Positions 33,607 to 43,900 of a stretch of 64,000 nt of DNA are shown piece after piece (within the stretch, counting starts at the first letter, position 1; each line of letters opens with the position of its first letter). The DNA comes from Gracilimonas sp. (GTDB taxonomy: Bacteria > Bacteroidota > Rhodothermia > Balneolales > Balneolaceae), in contig NZ_JAVJQO010000008.1 in NCBI RefSeq assembly GCF_040218225.1, positions 496,001 through 560,000 of the forward strand, read 5' to 3'. A model generated the notes under the pieces. The model was given only the letters and a program-made list of their open reading frames with translations. It made no database searches and had not been told where the DNA came from. Made by a program: the position numbers and the translations under genes.

Positions 33607-35949
33607 ATGCGATTCTCTACCAAAAGCTCTGCATCCCTTTTTGTGATCCTTTTCTCGTTAATTCTGATGACATCCGGCTGCAAGATTTACTCCGAAAAAG
33701 TTTCTGAAGAAGACTACCAAAGAGCCGAAAAAATGCTTTCGGGTCATACCAATGACTTGGTTCACGGAACCATTGCCGGTGAGGAATGGCTGGATGATGA
33801 CCGCCTTATTTATCGGCATTCTTTGGCTGATGGAACCGAGTTCATGGTTGCAAATCCAAGTGCTGCAACCGTGGAAAGAGCTTTTGATCACGACCGTCTC
33901 GCCGATATTCTATCCGGCATGATGAACAAGGAGGTGGAATCACTTGACCTCCCTTTCAGGAGTTTTGACTTTACCGACAATGGCGAGGCCATCACCTTTT
34001 CTGCGGATGGCAAAGAGTATCGATGTGAACTCACAGGCTACGATTGCGAAGTCACCCGCGATGAAGTACGAAACTATTGGAATGAATCGGTTTCTCCCGA
34101 TAGAAAGAAATCGGTGTTTATCAGGGGGCATAACCTCTTTATGCGGAATCTTGAAACCGGTCGGGTTACTCAGCTTACCTATGATGGCCGTGAGAACTTT
34201 GGCTACGCCACCAACAATGCCGGATGGGTGAAAAGAGACGGGCCCGTAGTGTTATGGTCACCCGACTCGAAACGGATTTCCACCTTCCAGCAGGATGCCC
34301 GTGGTGTTGGAGAAATGTATTTGGCCTCCACAAAAGTAGGTCATCCCGAGCTGGAACAATGGAAATATCCCCTTCCAGGCGACAGCGTCATCTTTCGCAT
34401 TCACCGTGTGGTTATAAATCTGGAACCTACCCCAAAAGTAGTCAGGCTTCAGAAAGATCCTGACCCTCAACGATCTACCATCACGGATCATATTGCAGAC
34501 TGGGGAGGAAACTTTCTGGACAATGAATGGAGCAACGACAGTAACACGCTGGCTTTTGTATCGGTGTCCCGTGATCACCAGGATGTACATTTACAAACGG
34601 CCAACCCTAATACCGGCCGGGTTCAATCAGTCCTAAAAGAAGAAACAGACACCTTCTTTGAATCCGGCAATGACATGATAAACTGGCACGTGCTGCATGA
34701 AAGCAATGAGGTGATTTGGTATTCGCAGCGGGATAACTGGGGCCATTTATACCTCTATGACCTTCAAACCGGAAAACTCAAAAACCAGATTACCTCCGGC
34801 GACTGGAATGTGAATCAGGTTCGTCACGTGGATGAAGACTCCCGAACTATCTATTTCACGGGTGCGGTACGTGAGGAAGGCGATCCGTATTTTGAATATT
34901 TCTATAAAGTGAATTTTGATGGAACCGATCTCCGTCTCTTATCTCCTGAAGAAGCACACCATGAAATCGAAGTCTCTGAATCCGGAAACTACTTTGTGGA
35001 TACCCGGTCCACCCCAAGCACTCCTCCGACCTCTGTTATCCGAAACATGGATGGTGAGGTGCTGGTTGAACTTGCATCGGCTGACATTTCTGAACTTCAG
35101 GCGCATGGCTGGGTACCTCCTGTTCCCTTTTCCGTAAAAGCCCGGGATGGAGAAACCGATTTATACGGATTGATGTATAAGCCTTCCAATTTCAGCTCTT
35201 CGGAGTCCTATCCCGTGCTGAACTATCTTTATCCCGGACCACAAACCGGAAGTGTTGGCAGTCGCTCTTTCCGTGCCGCCCGTTCTGACAAGCAAGCCCT
35301 GGCAGAACTCGGCTTTATTGTGGTTGAAGTGGATGCCATGGGCACGCCGGGTCGCTCTAAAGAATTTCATGACTTTTATTATGGCAACATGGGTGATAAT
35401 GGTCTGCCCGATCAAATCACCATGATTGAACAGCTTGGAGAGCGTCATTCCTGGATGGATATCAGCCGTGTGGGGATTTTCGGACATTCCGGAGGTGGGT
35501 TTGCCTCTACCCGTGCCCTTTTCGCTTATCCCGGTTTCTATGATGTCGCCGTTTCAGGCGCCGGTAACCATGACAACCGAAACTATGCCGATCCATGGGG
35601 AGAGAAATGGCAGGGACTGCTCAAAGCCACCAATATTGATGGAGCTACTGACGATCAGTCCACCAACTACGACAATCAGGCTAACCAATTACTGACGGAC
35701 AGCCTGGAAGGTAAGCTGCTGATCACCCATGGTACGCTCGACAGCAACGTCCCTCCTTACAACACACTGCTGGTCGTAAACGCCCTGATTGAAGCTAACA
35801 AAGACTTTGATATGATCATGTTTCCGAACCGCGGACACGGCTATTACAGCGAGGATTATATGATGAGACGGCGATGGGATTATTTTGTGGAGCATCTGAA
35901 AGGTGTGGATCCGCCGAAGGAGTATGAGTTTGGGAAGATTGACCAGTAA
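33607..35949 (+). CDS. DPP-IV-like S9 peptidase lipoprotein
   Basis: The 780-residue protein has a lipoprotein signal (Cys25, TSGC), a DPP-IV beta-propeller (about 60-500) and a C-terminal alpha/beta-hydrolase with S628 (FGHSGGGF), D712 (HGTLDSNVPP) and H744 (NRGHGYY). It should cleave N-terminal X-Pro/X-Ala dipeptides outside the cytoplasm. The end (DQ stop) runs directly into a heptamer tandem array. The gene is otherwise of normal length. Confidence 0.92.
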   Translation: MRFSTKSSASLFVILFSLILMTSGCKIYSEKVSEEDYQRAEKMLSGHTNDLVHGTIAGEEWLDDDRLIYRHSLADGTEFMVANPSAATVERAFDHDRLADILSGMMNKEVESLDLPFRSFDFTDNGEAITFSADGKEYRCELTGYDCEVTRDEVRNYWNESVSPDRKKSVFIRGHNLFMRNLETGRVTQLTYDGRENFGYATNNAGWVKRDGPVVLWSPDSKRISTFQQDARGVGEMYLASTKVGHPELEQWKYPLPGDSVIFRIHRVVINLEPTPKVVRLQKDPDPQRSTITDHIADWGGNFLDNEWSNDSNTLAFVSVSRDHQDVHLQTANPNTGRVQSVLKEETDTFFESGNDMINWHVLHESNEVIWYSQRDNWGHLYLYDLQTGKLKNQITSGDWNVNQVRHVDEDSRTIYFTGAVREEGDPYFEYFYKVNFDGTDLRLLSPEEAHHEIEVSESGNYFVDTRSTPSTPPTSVIRNMDGEVLVELASADISELQAHGWVPPVPFSVKARDGETDLYGLMYKPSNFSSSESYPVLNYLYPGPQTGSVGSRSFRAARSDKQALAELGFIVVEVDAMGTPGRSKEFHDFYYGNMGDNGLPDQITMIEQLGERHSWMDISRVGIFGHSGGGFASTRALFAYPGFYDVAVSGAGNHDNRNYADPWGEKWQGLLKATNIDGATDDQSTNYDNQANQLLTDSLEGKLLITHGTLDSNVPPYNTLLVVNALIEANKDFDMIMFPNRGHGYYSEDYMMRRRWDYFVEHLKGVDPPKEYEFGKIDQ

Positions 35950-36495: not shown

Positions 36496-36663
36496 GACTT
36501 CAGATTAGCTTTCTCTTACGGCTTCACCATCGTCATTCTGGGCGAAAGCGCCTACCTATAAAGGCATGCTCATTACCCTACTCCTTTACCGTTCAGCCAC
36601 TTGTAAATAATGGGTTTGTACTTTTAGAAAGAATTTTCGCACCTTAGCTTATTATAAAACCGG

Positions 36664-36798
36664 ATATTAGGCGAACGACGGTTCGGATAACATCCCAAAA
36701 TCACATTATACGAACAAGAAGGAGCAGGAAAGCGCGTAATGGCGGTTTCGGCTCATTCGCCCTAACAATACCCTCGTTCGGATAATAATATGTTAGCC
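36664..36798. other. ~128-nt imperfect foldback ending in GTTAGCC, possible attC-like site
   Basis: The left arm ATATTAG..CGAACGA (36664-36678) is mirrored by TCGTTCG..TAATAT on the right (36774-36791), with CGGTTCGGATA-like words repeated. Immediately after comes GTTAGCC (36792-36798), similar to an integron GTTRRRY core. It precedes the propeller gene by 62 nt. Folding quality needs computation. Confidence 0.35.
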
Positions 36799-36860
36799 AA
36801 CTTTTCTTTCATTAACTTAGTTGGCACAAGCCAAAGTCTTCTAAATTAGTTTAGGCTGAT

Positions 36861-39026
36861 ATGAAAATATGGATCACAATTTTTTTTCTAATAGGCTTCC
36901 ACTGTACCGGGTTTGCACAAAGCAATGATTGGATAAATTATACCAATGGTAACGAAATAAGAGATATAGTCGAGACTGAAAATAGTTATTGGATTGGTAC
37001 GAATGGTGGGTTGGTCGAAATCAATAAATCAGATGATGAAACAATTTTCTACAATGTCTCAAATTCTGATCTGCCCGGTAACACAATATGGGCTTTAACA
37101 TACAATGAAAATGGTGATTTATGGGTTGGCACTGAACGGGGATTGGTGTTAATCAATAATGGAGAATGGCAGGTGTTTGATACATCAAATTCAGGGCTGC
37201 CGCATAACCACGTTAGAGAAATTGCGATTGAAACGAATGGGGATAAATGGATAGCTACAAGGAATGGTTTGGCTCATTACAATGATTCAGAGTGGATTAT
37301 TTATAATAGTGAGAATTCAGCTTTACCTGGAAATGATATCGCTGAAATAGCTATTAATCAAAGCAATGAAAAATGGATAGGTGCCAGTGGACTGGTTATG
37401 TTTGATGATGTACAGTGGCAGGTCTACAATTCAGAGAACAGTGAATTGCCAAATAATTTAATTTTATCGATTGATTTCGATAGTGAACAACAAGTGTGGG
37501 TTGGCACGGGCAGTGGCTTAGCCAAATATAATGGGGAAAGCTGGGAGATCTTTAAAACAGATAATTCAGGACTACCCCATAATACCGTAAGAAAAATTCT
37601 TATAAAAGATAACATAAAATGGTTTGGCACTTGGGGTGGCGGAGTAGCCAAATTTGAAGAAAATGGGTGGCAGGTTTTTGATCCTTCAAATTCCGGGTTG
37701 TCTGGAGATCTTATCTATTCACTATTAATAGACAGTAATGGAGATCTATGGTCCGGAACAATTCGCAATGGGCTAAACCGATTTGATGGATCAAATTGGA
37801 TATCTCCGGTAACCTCTAACTCCGGTCTGCCTTCTAATGAAATAAGAAATATGGTAATAGATCAAAGTGGAGATAAATGGATTAGCACAGGCGCGGTTGG
37901 TATTGTAAATGGGTTGATACATTTCGATAATTCTACCTGGCACCAATATACAACCACAAATTCCGGTTTGGCCGACGATTATGTACAAGCGATAGCTACA
38001 GATCAGCAAGATGATCTGTGGATTGGTACAGAAAACGGTCTGAATCATTTTGATGGAGAAAACTGGCAGACATACAATTCTGACAACTCCGGTTTCCTTT
38101 ATAATTTTGTCTCCTCAATTGCGGTTGATGACAAGGATACGAAATGGATAGCAACACACGGTAGTATAGCACGACTGAAGGATGGAGAGTGGACATATTA
38201 TAATGAAGAGAATACAAACATTTCGATGGGTGATATAAATATTATAGCAACAGGTGTAGATGATATAATCTGGGCAGGTACCACTTATGGACTGGCTCAT
38301 TTTGATGGGTTAGATTGGCATGAAGGGAATTACGGGGAATCAGCCACGCAAGGTCTTATCAGCTCTATCACATCGGATAGTATTGGTAATATTTGGGTAG
38401 GCCTTACTCAGGGCATGCCTGGCCACGGATTTGGTGGGGATGGGTTAGGTTTTTATAATGGTACCGATTGGCAGATTTACAGGTCTTCAAATTCGGAATT
38501 ACCCAATGACTGGATAAATACAACCACCATTGATGTTAACAATAGCTTATGGGTTGGCACCGGAAATGGGTTGGTTCGGATAACGGAGGACAATCAATGG
38601 CAGGTTTTCAATCATTCCAATTCTGGCTTACCGGACAACAATATTAAATCAATTGCAATTGATGATAACGGGGATGTTTGGGTGGGTACTGACGGAGGTA
38701 TTGCTGTTTATAAAAATGGTATCACCGTATCTGTAGCTGATCAGAAAGCAATTGAAATTCCTGGCTCAGTAGTTCTCCATCAAAACTATCCCAATCCATT
38801 CAATCCCTCTACAAATATACAGTTTACACTTCCGCAAAGCAGTCACGTGAAATTAGAAGTTTTCAATTCTACCGGACAATTGGTTTCTACGCTGCTCGAT
38901 CAGACAAAGACAGGCGGTAAACACTCAGTACAATTTGATGCGAGCAATTTATCAAGTGGATTATACATTTATAGATTAACTACGTCAGGTAAACAATTGA
39001 CTCGAAAATTTATCTTTGTAAAATAA
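36861..39026 (+). CDS. Exported beta-propeller (two-component-regulator-propeller-like) protein with sorting domain
   Basis: The 721-residue protein has signal peptide MKIWITIFFLIGFHCTGFAQ and about 12 repeats of ~45 residues with the pattern NSGLP.N.I..I..D..G..W.GT..GL..., the propeller unit found in extracellular sensor domains of Bacteroidota hybrid regulators. No kinase part is present. The end is a type A sorting domain: [29 protein letters not shown] and SSGLYIYRL. It is probably surface-exposed. AT-richer sequence and flanking foldback elements suggest acquisition. Confidence 0.88.
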   Translation: MKIWITIFFLIGFHCTGFAQSNDWINYTNGNEIRDIVETENSYWIGTNGGLVEINKSDDETIFYNVSNSDLPGNTIWALTYNENGDLWVGTERGLVLINNGEWQVFDTSNSGLPHNHVREIAIETNGDKWIATRNGLAHYNDSEWIIYNSENSALPGNDIAEIAINQSNEKWIGASGLVMFDDVQWQVYNSENSELPNNLILSIDFDSEQQVWVGTGSGLAKYNGESWEIFKTDNSGLPHNTVRKILIKDNIKWFGTWGGGVAKFEENGWQVFDPSNSGLSGDLIYSLLIDSNGDLWSGTIRNGLNRFDGSNWISPVTSNSGLPSNEIRNMVIDQSGDKWISTGAVGIVNGLIHFDNSTWHQYTTTNSGLADDYVQAIATDQQDDLWIGTENGLNHFDGENWQTYNSDNSGFLYNFVSSIAVDDKDTKWIATHGSIARLKDGEWTYYNEENTNISMGDINIIATGVDDIIWAGTTYGLAHFDGLDWHEGNYGESATQGLISSITSDSIGNIWVGLTQGMPGHGFGGDGLGFYNGTDWQIYRSSNSELPNDWINTTTIDVNNSLWVGTGNGLVRITEDNQWQVFNHSNSGLPDNNIKSIAIDDNGDVWVGTDGGIAVYKNGITVSVADQKAIEIPGSVVLHQNYPNPFNPSTNIQFTLPQSSHVKLEVFNSTGQLVSTLLDQTKTGGKHSVQFDASNLSSGLYIYRLTTSGKQLTRKFIFVK

Positions 39027-39033
39027 AATTGGT

Positions 39034-39157
39034 GGCTAACAATGTGTTTTAAATCGGACACGGACGGGATTCGATGAAACTTGATTGCCAGGAATTAATT
39101 TTGCTACTTCAATAAAATTATAATCCCCGCGCCGCTTATTTGCCAAACCGTTATGCC
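39034..39157 (+). repeat. attC-like foldback element (124 nt)
   Basis: GGCTAAC (39034-39040) near-complements GTTATGCC (39150-39157) with one bulge, and inner arms AAATCGG...CGGGATT and AATCCCCGCGCCG..ATTT also pair imperfectly. This is the R''-L''-loop-L'-R' layout and length of long integron attC sites (VCR-like). It begins 8 nt after the propeller stop, as expected for a cassette. Core bases deviate from consensus. Confidence 0.4.
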
Positions 39158-39188
39158 TCCCTCCCCACAATAAATAGTGCTTGATTAA

Positions 39189-39206
39189 GTTAACATAATT
39201 GTTAAC
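39189..39206. promoter_or_regulatory. Inverted/direct GTTAAC operator-like site
   Basis: GTTAAC-ATAATT-GTTAAC (two palindromic hexamers, 6-nt spacer) ends 9 nt before the toxin GTG start. Antitoxins of this family bind such sites to repress their own operon; identity here is inferred. Confidence 0.4.
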
Positions 39207-39215
39207 ATTTCTTCA

Positions 39216-39569
39216 GTGAAAGAAATCAAATTTTATAAAACTCAGTATGGCAAAGTTCCGGTTAAAGAGTTTTTGGATTCATTGCCATCCAAACACGCTC
39301 AAAAGGTTACTTGGGTTCTTGAGTTAGTAGAAAAATTAGACCAGGTTCCCGTTCAATATTTTAAAAAGCTCAAAAGTACCGATGATATTTGGGAAGTTCG
39401 GGCACGAATTGGATCACATAGTTTTCGTTTGCTTGGTTTTATAGATGATGATGCGTTTGTCATACTAACGAATGGATTTTCTAAAAAATCACAAAAAACA
39501 CCTAAACAGGAAATCGAGGTAGCTGAACAGCGAAAAGCCGATTATCTATCTCGTAAAGGAGGAACATAA
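39216..39569 (+). CDS. higB: RelE/HigB-type (Gp49-like, PF05973) toxin
   Basis: The GTG at 39216 gives a 117-residue protein with the HigB/Gp49 pattern: [23 protein letters not shown], then [19 protein letters not shown]-like [19 protein letters not shown] and [22 protein letters not shown]. The family consists of ribosome-dependent mRNA interferases. The toxin gene precedes its antitoxin, the reverse-order HigBA layout. It follows the attC-like element by 58 nt. Confidence 0.88.
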
Positions 39570-39570
39570 G

Positions 39571-39849
39571 ATGAGTGATCTTCAAGCATATATCAGTGAA
39601 AGAAAAAAATCAGATCCCGATTTTGCCGAAGGATATGAAGAAGGATTCCGAAATTTTAAAATTGGTGTGCTTCTGAAACAAGCCCGGGAAAAAGCGGGGC
39701 TTACTCAGGATGAAGTAGCTCAGCAGTTAAATACCAAAAAGACCGCCGTATCCCGAATTGAAAATCATGCGGAGGATATTCGCCTGTCCACTCTTGAGAA
39801 GTATGCCAAAGCATTTGGAAAGAAACTTAGAGTCGAACTCGTAGATTGA
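39571..39849 (+). CDS. higA: XRE-family HigA-like antitoxin
   Basis: The 92-residue protein has a classical XRE helix-turn-helix in its C-terminal two thirds (LLKQAREKAGLTQDEVAQQLNTKKTAVSRIENHAEDIRLSTLEKYAKAFGKKL split). It starts 1 nt after the toxin stop, so it is translationally coupled. It should neutralise HigB and repress the operon, probably at 39189-39206. Confidence 0.88.
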   Translation: MSDLQAYISERKKSDPDFAEGYEEGFRNFKIGVLLKQAREKAGLTQDEVAQQLNTKKTAVSRIENHAEDIRLSTLEKYAKAFGKKLRVELVD

Positions 39850-39874
39850 GGGAGATATAACCAGCCTTTCCCCT

Positions 39875-39923
39875 CATTCCCAACAACCCTGTTGGGAATG
39901 CTATAGTGGACCACCCGGTCCAC
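39875..39923. repeat. REP doublet left of RAYT-1
   Basis: Hairpin A: CATTCCCAACA (39875-39885), loop ACCC, TGTTGGGAATG (39890-39900). Hairpin B: GTGGACC (39906-39912), loop ACCC, GGTCCAC (39917-39923). Both palindromes recur in reverse order and opposite orientation on the other side of the transposase. Confidence 0.9.
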
Positions 39924-39953
39924 CCCGCAAAAGCATGTAAGCTAAACACACCA

Positions 39954-40489
39954 TCAACCAGCAAATATGGTAACCGGAATCAAGCCCTCCCGGCCCAGGT
40001 AATTTCCTGCAGATGAATACCTCCAGTCATCCGGAGCATTCACCCAACCCGCCTTTACAGGATTCTGATGAATGTATTCAATCTTCTGGGCCATCATCTC
40101 TGTCGTACTGAGTTGCTTTGGATGTAGCCCCTCTTCCCACACTTGATAGGTGCGGTGTCTTTTATAAGACCGTTTGCATTCTTTCAACTTCTGCAACCAC
40201 CGGGAATGTCCATTCCGCTTTAACGCCTCCAGTATCTGCCGCGCAGCATAGGATTTTGTAAGCCTGAGCTTTTTTGATAATTGCTCCCCTGTACCACCGC
40301 ATGAAAGTGATCAGGCATGATTACATACGCATATACCTTCACTGACCTCATATTTTGCAGCACCATAAACTGTTCAAGTAATACCTGAGCAACTTGAGGT
40401 TTTGAAAATAGCGGAAGCTCTTCCAATAAGGTACTGCTGACAAAGTACGGGTAGTGTGATTCATAAAATTTGTATCGGCTTCGTCCCAT
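39954..40489 (-). pseudogene. REP-associated tyrosine transposase (RAYT), frameshifted
   Basis: Two frames together match one Y1-transposase: N-terminal MGRSRYKFYESHYPYF with HUH motif DHFHAVV (start at 40489), and C-terminal QVWEEGLHPKQLSTTEMM ... VKAGWVN ending at 39954. The break lies at a G-run: the minus strand has four G's (plus-strand C's 40286-40289) where five would keep frame, after which EQLSKKLRLTKSYAARQ continues. Compare the intact RAYT at 58019. A true mutation, a sequencing error or recoding are all possible. Confidence 0.85.
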
Positions 40490-40505
40490 TGTTTCTTTTT
40501 TACCA

Positions 40506-40535
40506 GTTAGAAGGCAAAGAATGGAACTCCTTACA
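40506..40535 (-). promoter_or_regulatory. Bipartite ECF-like promoter of RAYT-1
   Basis: On the minus strand TGTAAGGAGTTC (40524-40535) is followed after exactly 11 nt by TTCTAAC (40506-40512), 16 nt before the transposase ATG. The same bipartite element, same spacing, precedes the genes starting at 58555 and 63716. Confidence 0.6.
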
Positions 40536-40551
40536 AAATAATTCTAAATCA

Positions 40552-40598
40552 GGACCGGGAGGTCCGGGCGGGCGTTCCCAACAGGGATGTTGGGAACG
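40552..40598. repeat. REP doublet right of RAYT-1
   Basis: Hairpin B: GGACC-GGGA-GGTCC (40552-40565). Hairpin A: CGTTCCCAACA (40573-40583), loop GGGA, TGTTGGGAACG (40588-40598). It is the inverted counterpart of 39875-39923; the tetraloops are GGGT/GGGA when read in the same orientation. Confidence 0.9.
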
Positions 40599-40638
40599 AG
40601 AGCTAACTGTTTTCCGGTTAAGATCCTTCGGAAGTATC

Positions 40639-43444: not shown

Positions 43445-43521
43445 ATCCTTCCTTTTGCAATATTCTCTTTCTTCAATTGTACATCCATCACGAACCGGGT
43501 ATCTTTTATTCTACACCTGAA

Positions 43522-43566
43522 GTAAGGACGACCTTACCGCTCTTTCCCACAATGAGGACGGCCTCA
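43522..43566 (+). promoter_or_regulatory. Guanidine-II (mini-ykkC) riboswitch
   Basis: Two stem-loops with ACGR tetraloops follow each other: GTAAGG-ACGA-CCTTAC (43522-43537) and TGAGG-ACGG-CCTCA (43553-43566), 15 nt apart. Two ACGR hairpins are the defining feature of guanidine-II aptamers, where the loops kiss in the presence of guanidinium. The second hairpin ends 16 nt before the start codon of an SMR exporter, so control of translation is likely. Confidence 0.88.
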
Positions 43567-43582
43567 GCAAATATATAATATC

Positions 43583-43900
43583 ATGTCCTGGATTTATTTA
43601 TTGGTTGCCGGTTTATTTGAAATAGGCTGGGCAATTGGACTTAAGTATACCGAAGGCTTTACCAAATTCTGGCCTTCTGTTTTTACCGGAGTCTCCATGA
43701 TTGTAAGCATTACCTTATTGGGCGTTGCTTTGAAAAATTTACCCATTGGAACTGCTTACACCATATGGACCGGCATCGGAGCAATCGGAACTGTCATTCT
43801 CGGCATTTATTTATTTGATGAACCCGCCACTGCTGCCAGGTTTTTCTTTATCAGCCTGATTCTCATAGGTATTGTCGGATTGAAACTCATACATGAATAG
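43583..43900 (+). CDS. gdx: SMR-family guanidinium exporter Gdx (SugE-like)
   Basis: The 105-residue protein has four transmembrane helices and the essential Glu13 (GLFEIGWAIGLKY). The WTGIGAIGTVILGIYLFDE segment is the Gdx/SugE hallmark rather than that of EmrE. It exports guanidinium in exchange for protons. The upstream guanidine-II riboswitch supports this assignment strongly: loss of repression by guanidinium would turn it on. Confidence 0.93.
   Translation: MSWIYLLVAGLFEIGWAIGLKYTEGFTKFWPSVFTGVSMIVSITLLGVALKNLPIGTAYTIWTGIGAIGTVILGIYLFDEPATAARFFFISLILIGIVGLKLIHE

Follow-up and report, generated by a model that had tools for sequence, protein, structure and literature searches.

An attI-like site without a neighbouring integrase gene heads a cassette array in Gracilimonas sp., whose integron appears spread over several places on the chromosome

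The usual picture of an integron has one integrase and one adjacent attI site. The text accessible to us in the literature places attI next to intI, and also describes clusters of attC sites without an integrase (CALINs), attI sequences carried on cassettes, and insertion at attG sites (PMC12901181, PMC11023631, PMC9892861, PMC12444791, PMC9024848, PMC3607928, PMC9668308). According to the accessible part of PMC9024848, IntegronFinder 2.0 sets the default minimum for a CALIN at two attC sites, and attI sites other than those of class 1 are poorly described. Current tools would therefore miss attI entry points that have no intI beside them. Within the accessible literature, which left subscription journals mostly outside, our search found no description of several intI-less attI sites in one chromosome. 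The stretch analyzed here, called the window, comprises 64,000 nucleotides (bases 496001-560000 of contig C8) from the 3.54 Mb genome of a marine Gracilimonas sp. (G000; 11 contigs, 98.56% complete). Positions 36663-39861 of the window hold what we consider, on balance, to be an integron array without intI, in which the attI-like site, like other orphan sites of its kind, probably serves as a landing pad for an integrase acting in trans.

The first cassette of this array extends from 36793 to 39150 on the + strand, beginning with TTAGCC and ending at the crossover G in its own attC. Its cargo is a propeller gene (36861-39026, +) encoding a 721-aa Reg_prop protein (Pfam PF07494, 107.2 bits) with a C-terminal Por_Secre_tail sorting domain (PF18962, 52.6 bits) and an N-terminus that looks signal-like by eye, and the protein probably acts in surface-exposed or secreted binding. 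Among the best candidates from each of 56 other genomes (at most 19 per genome), no match to the gene was found at E<=1e-60, as would be expected for cassette cargo. A sequence-only reading of the window had proposed that this gene was possibly inserted as an integron-like cassette. The positions it gave were correct: GTTAGCC occupies 36792-36798 and precedes the start codon (ATG at 36861) by 62 nt, the gene ends at 39026, and GGCTAAC (39034-39040) and GTTATGCC (39150-39157) follow. The proposal itself is supported by an attC model, by complementary cassette ends and by comparison between species. The cassette starts at G36792|TTAGCCA, and the complement of this left end, TGGCTAA, is found in its own attC, which begins ...TGGCTAAC. 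Beyond the TAAC core, the cassette start is complementary to the R'' of this attC at 5 of 7 expected positions, the four nearest the core being unbroken; 12.7% of control pairs reach or pass this level. The core bases deviate from RYYYAAC/GTTRRRY, which had made the first assignment uncertain, and this is no problem because both cassette ends deviate complementarily.

The site behind the gene (39034-39157, +) is identified as the attC of this cassette by its model score. As a substitute for HattCI or IntegronFinder, we built an attC covariance model (R1) from 25 attCs of G000, G001, G002 (Gracilimonas amylolytica LA399), G003 (G. mengyeensis DSM 21985), G006 and G007, with the window copy excluded. 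The model found 39034-39156 at 96.0 bits (E 8.8e-22) and reported one other match in the rest of the 64 kb, at E 1.6. Its stems covary: both partners differ in 13 pairs, where shuffles give 7.2, and none of 500 shuffles reached 13. Long copies of the site, at 84-91% identity, occur beside the genome's IntI and elsewhere in the genome. The foldback proposed for this site did not stand up when the sequence was folded alone as DNA, with z-scores of +0.9 and +0.8 for the two strands, no better than shuffles. This poor single-strand folding is explained by weakly paired arms: on the bottom strand the R''/R' and L''/L' arms reach a dG of -11.6 kcal/mol (z -1.7), compared with -14.5 to -24.4 kcal/mol in 24 of the 25 reference attCs (the remaining one, at -10.5, belongs to the orphan array on C2), and the R1 alignment shows several L pairs and part of R broken. 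With such arms the site may be a poor substrate. From its sequence it looks chimeric, the 5' half belonging to the GTTTTAAATCGG family and the 3' half resembling the attC at C2:134968-135058, and a 30-nt stretch (query 100-129) matches C2 at 100% identity. A chimera of this sort likely arose by recombination between neighbouring attCs. The folding result would suit the idea that these are ordinary intergenic repeats with a chance likeness to integron sites and no integron biology. The attC score, the identity with attCs that adjoin the genome's IntI, and the synteny breaks at the cassette ends already refute that idea, and we give it practically no credence.

The element before the gene (36663-36792, +) had been read as a second attC-like end. 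We dropped this assignment, so that of the two proposed attC-like ends the 3' one stands and the 5' one does not: the element is a homologue of intI-adjacent attI sites. Homologous elements lie directly upstream of intI in G006, in G002 and on contig C74 of G026, a genome of the family. This homology, together with the G|TTA crossover, identifies the 5' element as an attI homologue. An attI sequence model (R2) of 25 copies, the window copy included, aligned to it with 108.3 bits at C8:532663-532795, and the crossover is expected after G36792; the alignment behind the model (A3) left out four of the 29 match loci besides the query (L064, L066, L068 and L079). Matches to 36660-36800 were present in 13 of 57 genomes, including all ten of the genus. 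The foldback seen here was real on the top strand of 36664-36791, which folds better than shuffles (z -2.8; bottom strand z -1.4), so the proposed covariance and folding check gave a significant attC score for the 3' site and a better-than-shuffled fold for the 5' element only. We also rejected the idea of a mobile element starting at 36667, since many copies reach further left; the window copy is without 13 nt found in many others, which shows a deletion there. Upstream, at 36601-36627 (+), lies a promoter-like stretch (TTG...TACTTTTAG) that G001 and G007 also have, in conserved form, at the syntenic locus. By its likeness to the promoter consensus, it is a candidate cassette promoter.

The second cassette (39151-39861, +) carries the toxin-antitoxin pair that had been noticed behind the propeller gene (39216-39849). 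It consists of a HigB/Gp49-family toxin (39216-39569, +; PF05973, 72.5 bits) and an HTH (HigA-type) antitoxin (39571-39849, +; PF01381, 49.4 bits). The attC of this cassette is truncated: what is left is an R''-like GAGGGAGATATAAC at 39848-39861, behind the antitoxin, which by eye is complementary to the left end of the cassette, TTATGCCTCCCTC, with two mismatches. Directly 3' of it, where the variable stretch ends, lies an element (39867-40600, unstranded) with inverted, REP-like ends and a transposase-like gene that occupies two frames (39954-40489, - strand). The REP-like ends are at about 39873 and 40560, with an inverted match at 40552-40600, and the element presumably belongs to a transposase family. 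In G001 (L113) and G003 (L247), too, similar REP-like ends seem by eye to interrupt attC sites, and this suggests that the REP/transposase element prefers attC hairpins. Part of the toxin-antitoxin cassette recurs elsewhere, as 39461-39870 is matched at 88.5% within an array that an orphan attI heads in G008. By eye an attC-like sequence stands behind the antitoxin there; it is not among the R1 matches at E<=0.01. At L238 (G008:C5), the match to the window's toxin gene, 596 nt behind the orphan attI of that locus, has its first base precisely at CATACTAAC, an R''-like core within the toxin gene that looks as if it had been used by recombination. Thus the array holds one full attC and a second reduced to its R''-like end, below the two attCs of a CALIN. 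With an attI homologue at its head and one full attC only, the array is not the CALIN that it had been said to resemble. Apart from the integron, the only Rfam match in the window at gathering thresholds was a guanidine-II riboswitch (43520-43566, +; 42.8 bits), directly 5' of a gene named by eye as SMR-type (43583-43900). A guanidine-II riboswitch before the gene of a small multidrug-resistance-type transporter is a known arrangement.

The earlier statement that no integrase is present holds for the window, where tblastn gave no IntI match, but not for the assembly. A single match above the cut-off for integron integrases was found in the assembly, at C8:608477-609421, with 445.7 bits for TIGR02249 where the cut-off is 265; it lies some 76 kb downstream of the window locus. 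Seven further TIGR02249 matches in the genome are all weaker and all below the cut-off. This IntI is adjoined by its own, resident attI and by an array of five attCs and one partial attC. By contrast with a complete integron, in which intI, attI and attC stand together, the window array has no intI adjacent. Since the assembly is in 11 contigs and somewhat short of complete, a further intI could be missing from it. Four contig ends (C2:1, C8:24, C4:669303 and C7:264087) lie in attC sites or within about 150 nt of one, so longer cassette arrays probably break the assembly. Upstream of intI we also observed a motif like AGAGCGAT....CAATTCCTTACA (L011:9465-9505) that recurs at four other places in the genome (C6:585094, C7:242781, C6:277723 and C4:614710), and this repeated motif is possibly an operator.

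How common are such sites in the genus? Globally, R2 found 36 attI-like sites in all ten Gracilimonas genomes, 21 of them in the model and 15 outside it; the weakest three (E 1e-5 to 3e-4) may be false. Across the family, R2 matched 14 of 92 genomes and 3 of 21 genera, and at E<=1e-8 with strict filters it matched four of the 82 family genomes outside the genus, in two further genera. When the fetched loci were searched by tblastn, IntI stood beside two of the 36 sites, while the other 34 gave no match at E<=0.01 with at least 2.2 kb upstream searched; a third site (G006:C4c) is about 6 kb along the array of the G006 integron. The junction TAATA..TG|TTA occurs at 28 of the 36 sites, and the next 12 nt differ in all 28; the remaining eight have no recognisable core. 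The cassette signature was present at six or more of its seven positions in 16 of the 28 junctions (14 of the 26 without intI, both intI-adjacent sites belonging to the 16), compared with 2.4% of 756 control pairs, in which junctions were paired with other loci. It fell below that level in 12 junctions, the window with its five positions being one of them. An attC in the correct orientation lies downstream of 24 of the 36 sites (22 of the 34 without intI), none was found behind the other 12, and none was found in the wrong orientation, in regions that were mostly longer downstream than upstream and with some of the attCs belonging to R1.

These counts bear on a reading in which the locus is a plain attC cluster, or a set of cassettes inserted at a non-classical attG site, with the 5' repeat as an unrelated dispersed element. 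Cassette insertion at attG is indeed documented (Loot 2024, as reported in the accessible text of citing papers). Nevertheless, the 5' element is homologous to the intI-adjacent attI in three genomes, and 28 of 36 copies share the position of the junction to the base, so this reading is largely contradicted and we regard it as very improbable. As an attI homologue, the 5' element gives the array an entry site of its own, and the array is more than a plain attC cluster.

Comparison of the same locus between species separates the cassettes from their surroundings. The window is collinear with G001 at 85-91% identity, the main exception being 36795-39867. At this place G001 has, by eye, another cassette and another toxin-antitoxin pair. 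G007 joins 36787 directly to 39887, so that the transposase element abuts attI and the locus there is no pristine empty site. At a second orphan locus, G001 and G007 share flanks that are 92.5-96.2% identical and carry different cassettes behind attI. The gene flanking the window array (33607-35949) is peptidase-like as named by eye. It is followed in G006 by a complete integron of intI, attI and cassettes, and in G004 by an orphan attI. No attI was found after it in G005, G002 and G009 within the 1.5 kb read, and G003 and G008 gave partial matches only. The complete integron beside the same flanking gene in G006 means that the window locus may have lost an intI, and the window site could accordingly be an old integron platform by origin. 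These differing states behind one gene speak against a common origin of all the orphan sites.

The same observation speaks for a possible but rather less likely reading, in which each orphan attI is merely the remnant of a complete integron after deletion of intI, the cassettes date from that age, the later differences are losses from longer arrays, and nothing acts in trans. This reading and the one with an integrase in trans are mutually exclusive. Loss of intI with attCs left behind has been described for Treponema phagedenis (accessible text of PMC3607928), and several orphan loci are common to two to four species, such as the one 3' of a TatD-like gene (named by eye) in G000, G002, G004 and G008. 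Against it stands the lack of any intI match by tblastn at 34 of the 36 sites. In addition, homology between unrelated orphan loci mostly begins at one left end of the element, though a further 40-60 nt of promoter-like sequence is common to some pairs. Two further points against remnants come from copies of the resident attI and from the serA site, described next.

The resident attI unit is about 181 bp long, from TTATATTG to TAATATGTTA, and has two further copies in the genome. One copy (99%), C2:2943-3123, follows immediately on an orphan attI of another type (type A); the other (89%) is at C7:263092-263274, behind a gene named by eye as serA. Both are without intI sequence and both stop at the GTT cores of the source, and the C2 junction is without the expected G. 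Overall, serA was matched in eight of the ten genomes and not found in G003 and G009. In G002, G004, G007 and G008 another gene follows it directly, with no attI; in G005 a type-A attI follows, and in G001 other sequence. Copies without intI sequence, and a serA site without attI in four species, both argue against deletion of intI from a complete integron. Judged from sequence, the two copies and the serA comparison fit cassette-like movement of an attI unit, and the strongest hint that such sites are used by the present integrase comes from the resident attI behind a type-A orphan attI on C2. Arrays can also be alike in content: a toxin-antitoxin cassette of the G007 intI array has a 90% match in a G003 array behind an orphan attI. 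The IntI of G000 shares about 74% identity with the integrases of G002 and G006, and the resident attI belongs to another type. With different types of integrase and of attI, the orphan sites of type A may be left over from an earlier integrase.

The array runs from the promoter-like sequence through the attI-like site and the propeller cassette with its attC to the toxin-antitoxin cassette. What the sequence itself shows are these sites with their junctions and cassette signature, their lack of intI, and syntenic loci with differing cassettes. Taking an integrase in trans as the preferred reading, an integron integrase would have joined the cassettes to the window attI at G|TTA (G36792), and the IntI 76 kb downstream is the only present candidate in the assembly for this role. 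The promoter-like stretch would transcribe the first cassette, and the REP/transposase element would later have cut the attC of the toxin-antitoxin cassette. Some orphan sites would have been born by movement of the attI unit, as the two resident copies suggest. Other loci of this genome, and the genus at large, have the same pattern of few integrase genes and several intI-less attI-like sites, each of which would take cassettes. In this marine bacterium, one integron appears spread over several places on the chromosome. A broader proposal, to which we give an even chance, is that the Gracilimonas integron is many-centred: units of attI plus promoter spread like gene-free cassettes and become inheritable pads, which one integrase fills in trans and whose cassettes are expressed from several promoters. 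If attI does move and does work without an adjoining intI, some "degraded integrons" and attC clusters would be active entry points.

Finally, the locus can be set beside the systems described so far. With sedentary chromosomal integrons it shares the attC type, the G|TT cassette boundaries, the cassette content and the one TIGR02249 IntI in the genome; it differs in that the window's attI homologue has no adjoining intI and that the genome has several such sites. Like a CALIN, it has attC-bearing cassettes with no integrase next to them, but an attI homologue heads the array and the locus is common to other species. With insertion at attG (Loot et al. 2024, as far as the citing papers report it) it shares cassettes away from the integron platform, whereas attG sites are neither attI nor attC and the sites here are attI homologues. 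The Delta-attI-type gene cassettes of mobile integrons (accessible text of PMC12901181) share with our data a moving attI with cassette-like boundaries. In those cassettes attI, or a part of it, ends a resistance cassette within one array, whereas in our genome the entire attI unit, gene-free and about 181 bp long, stands at new chromosomal sites.
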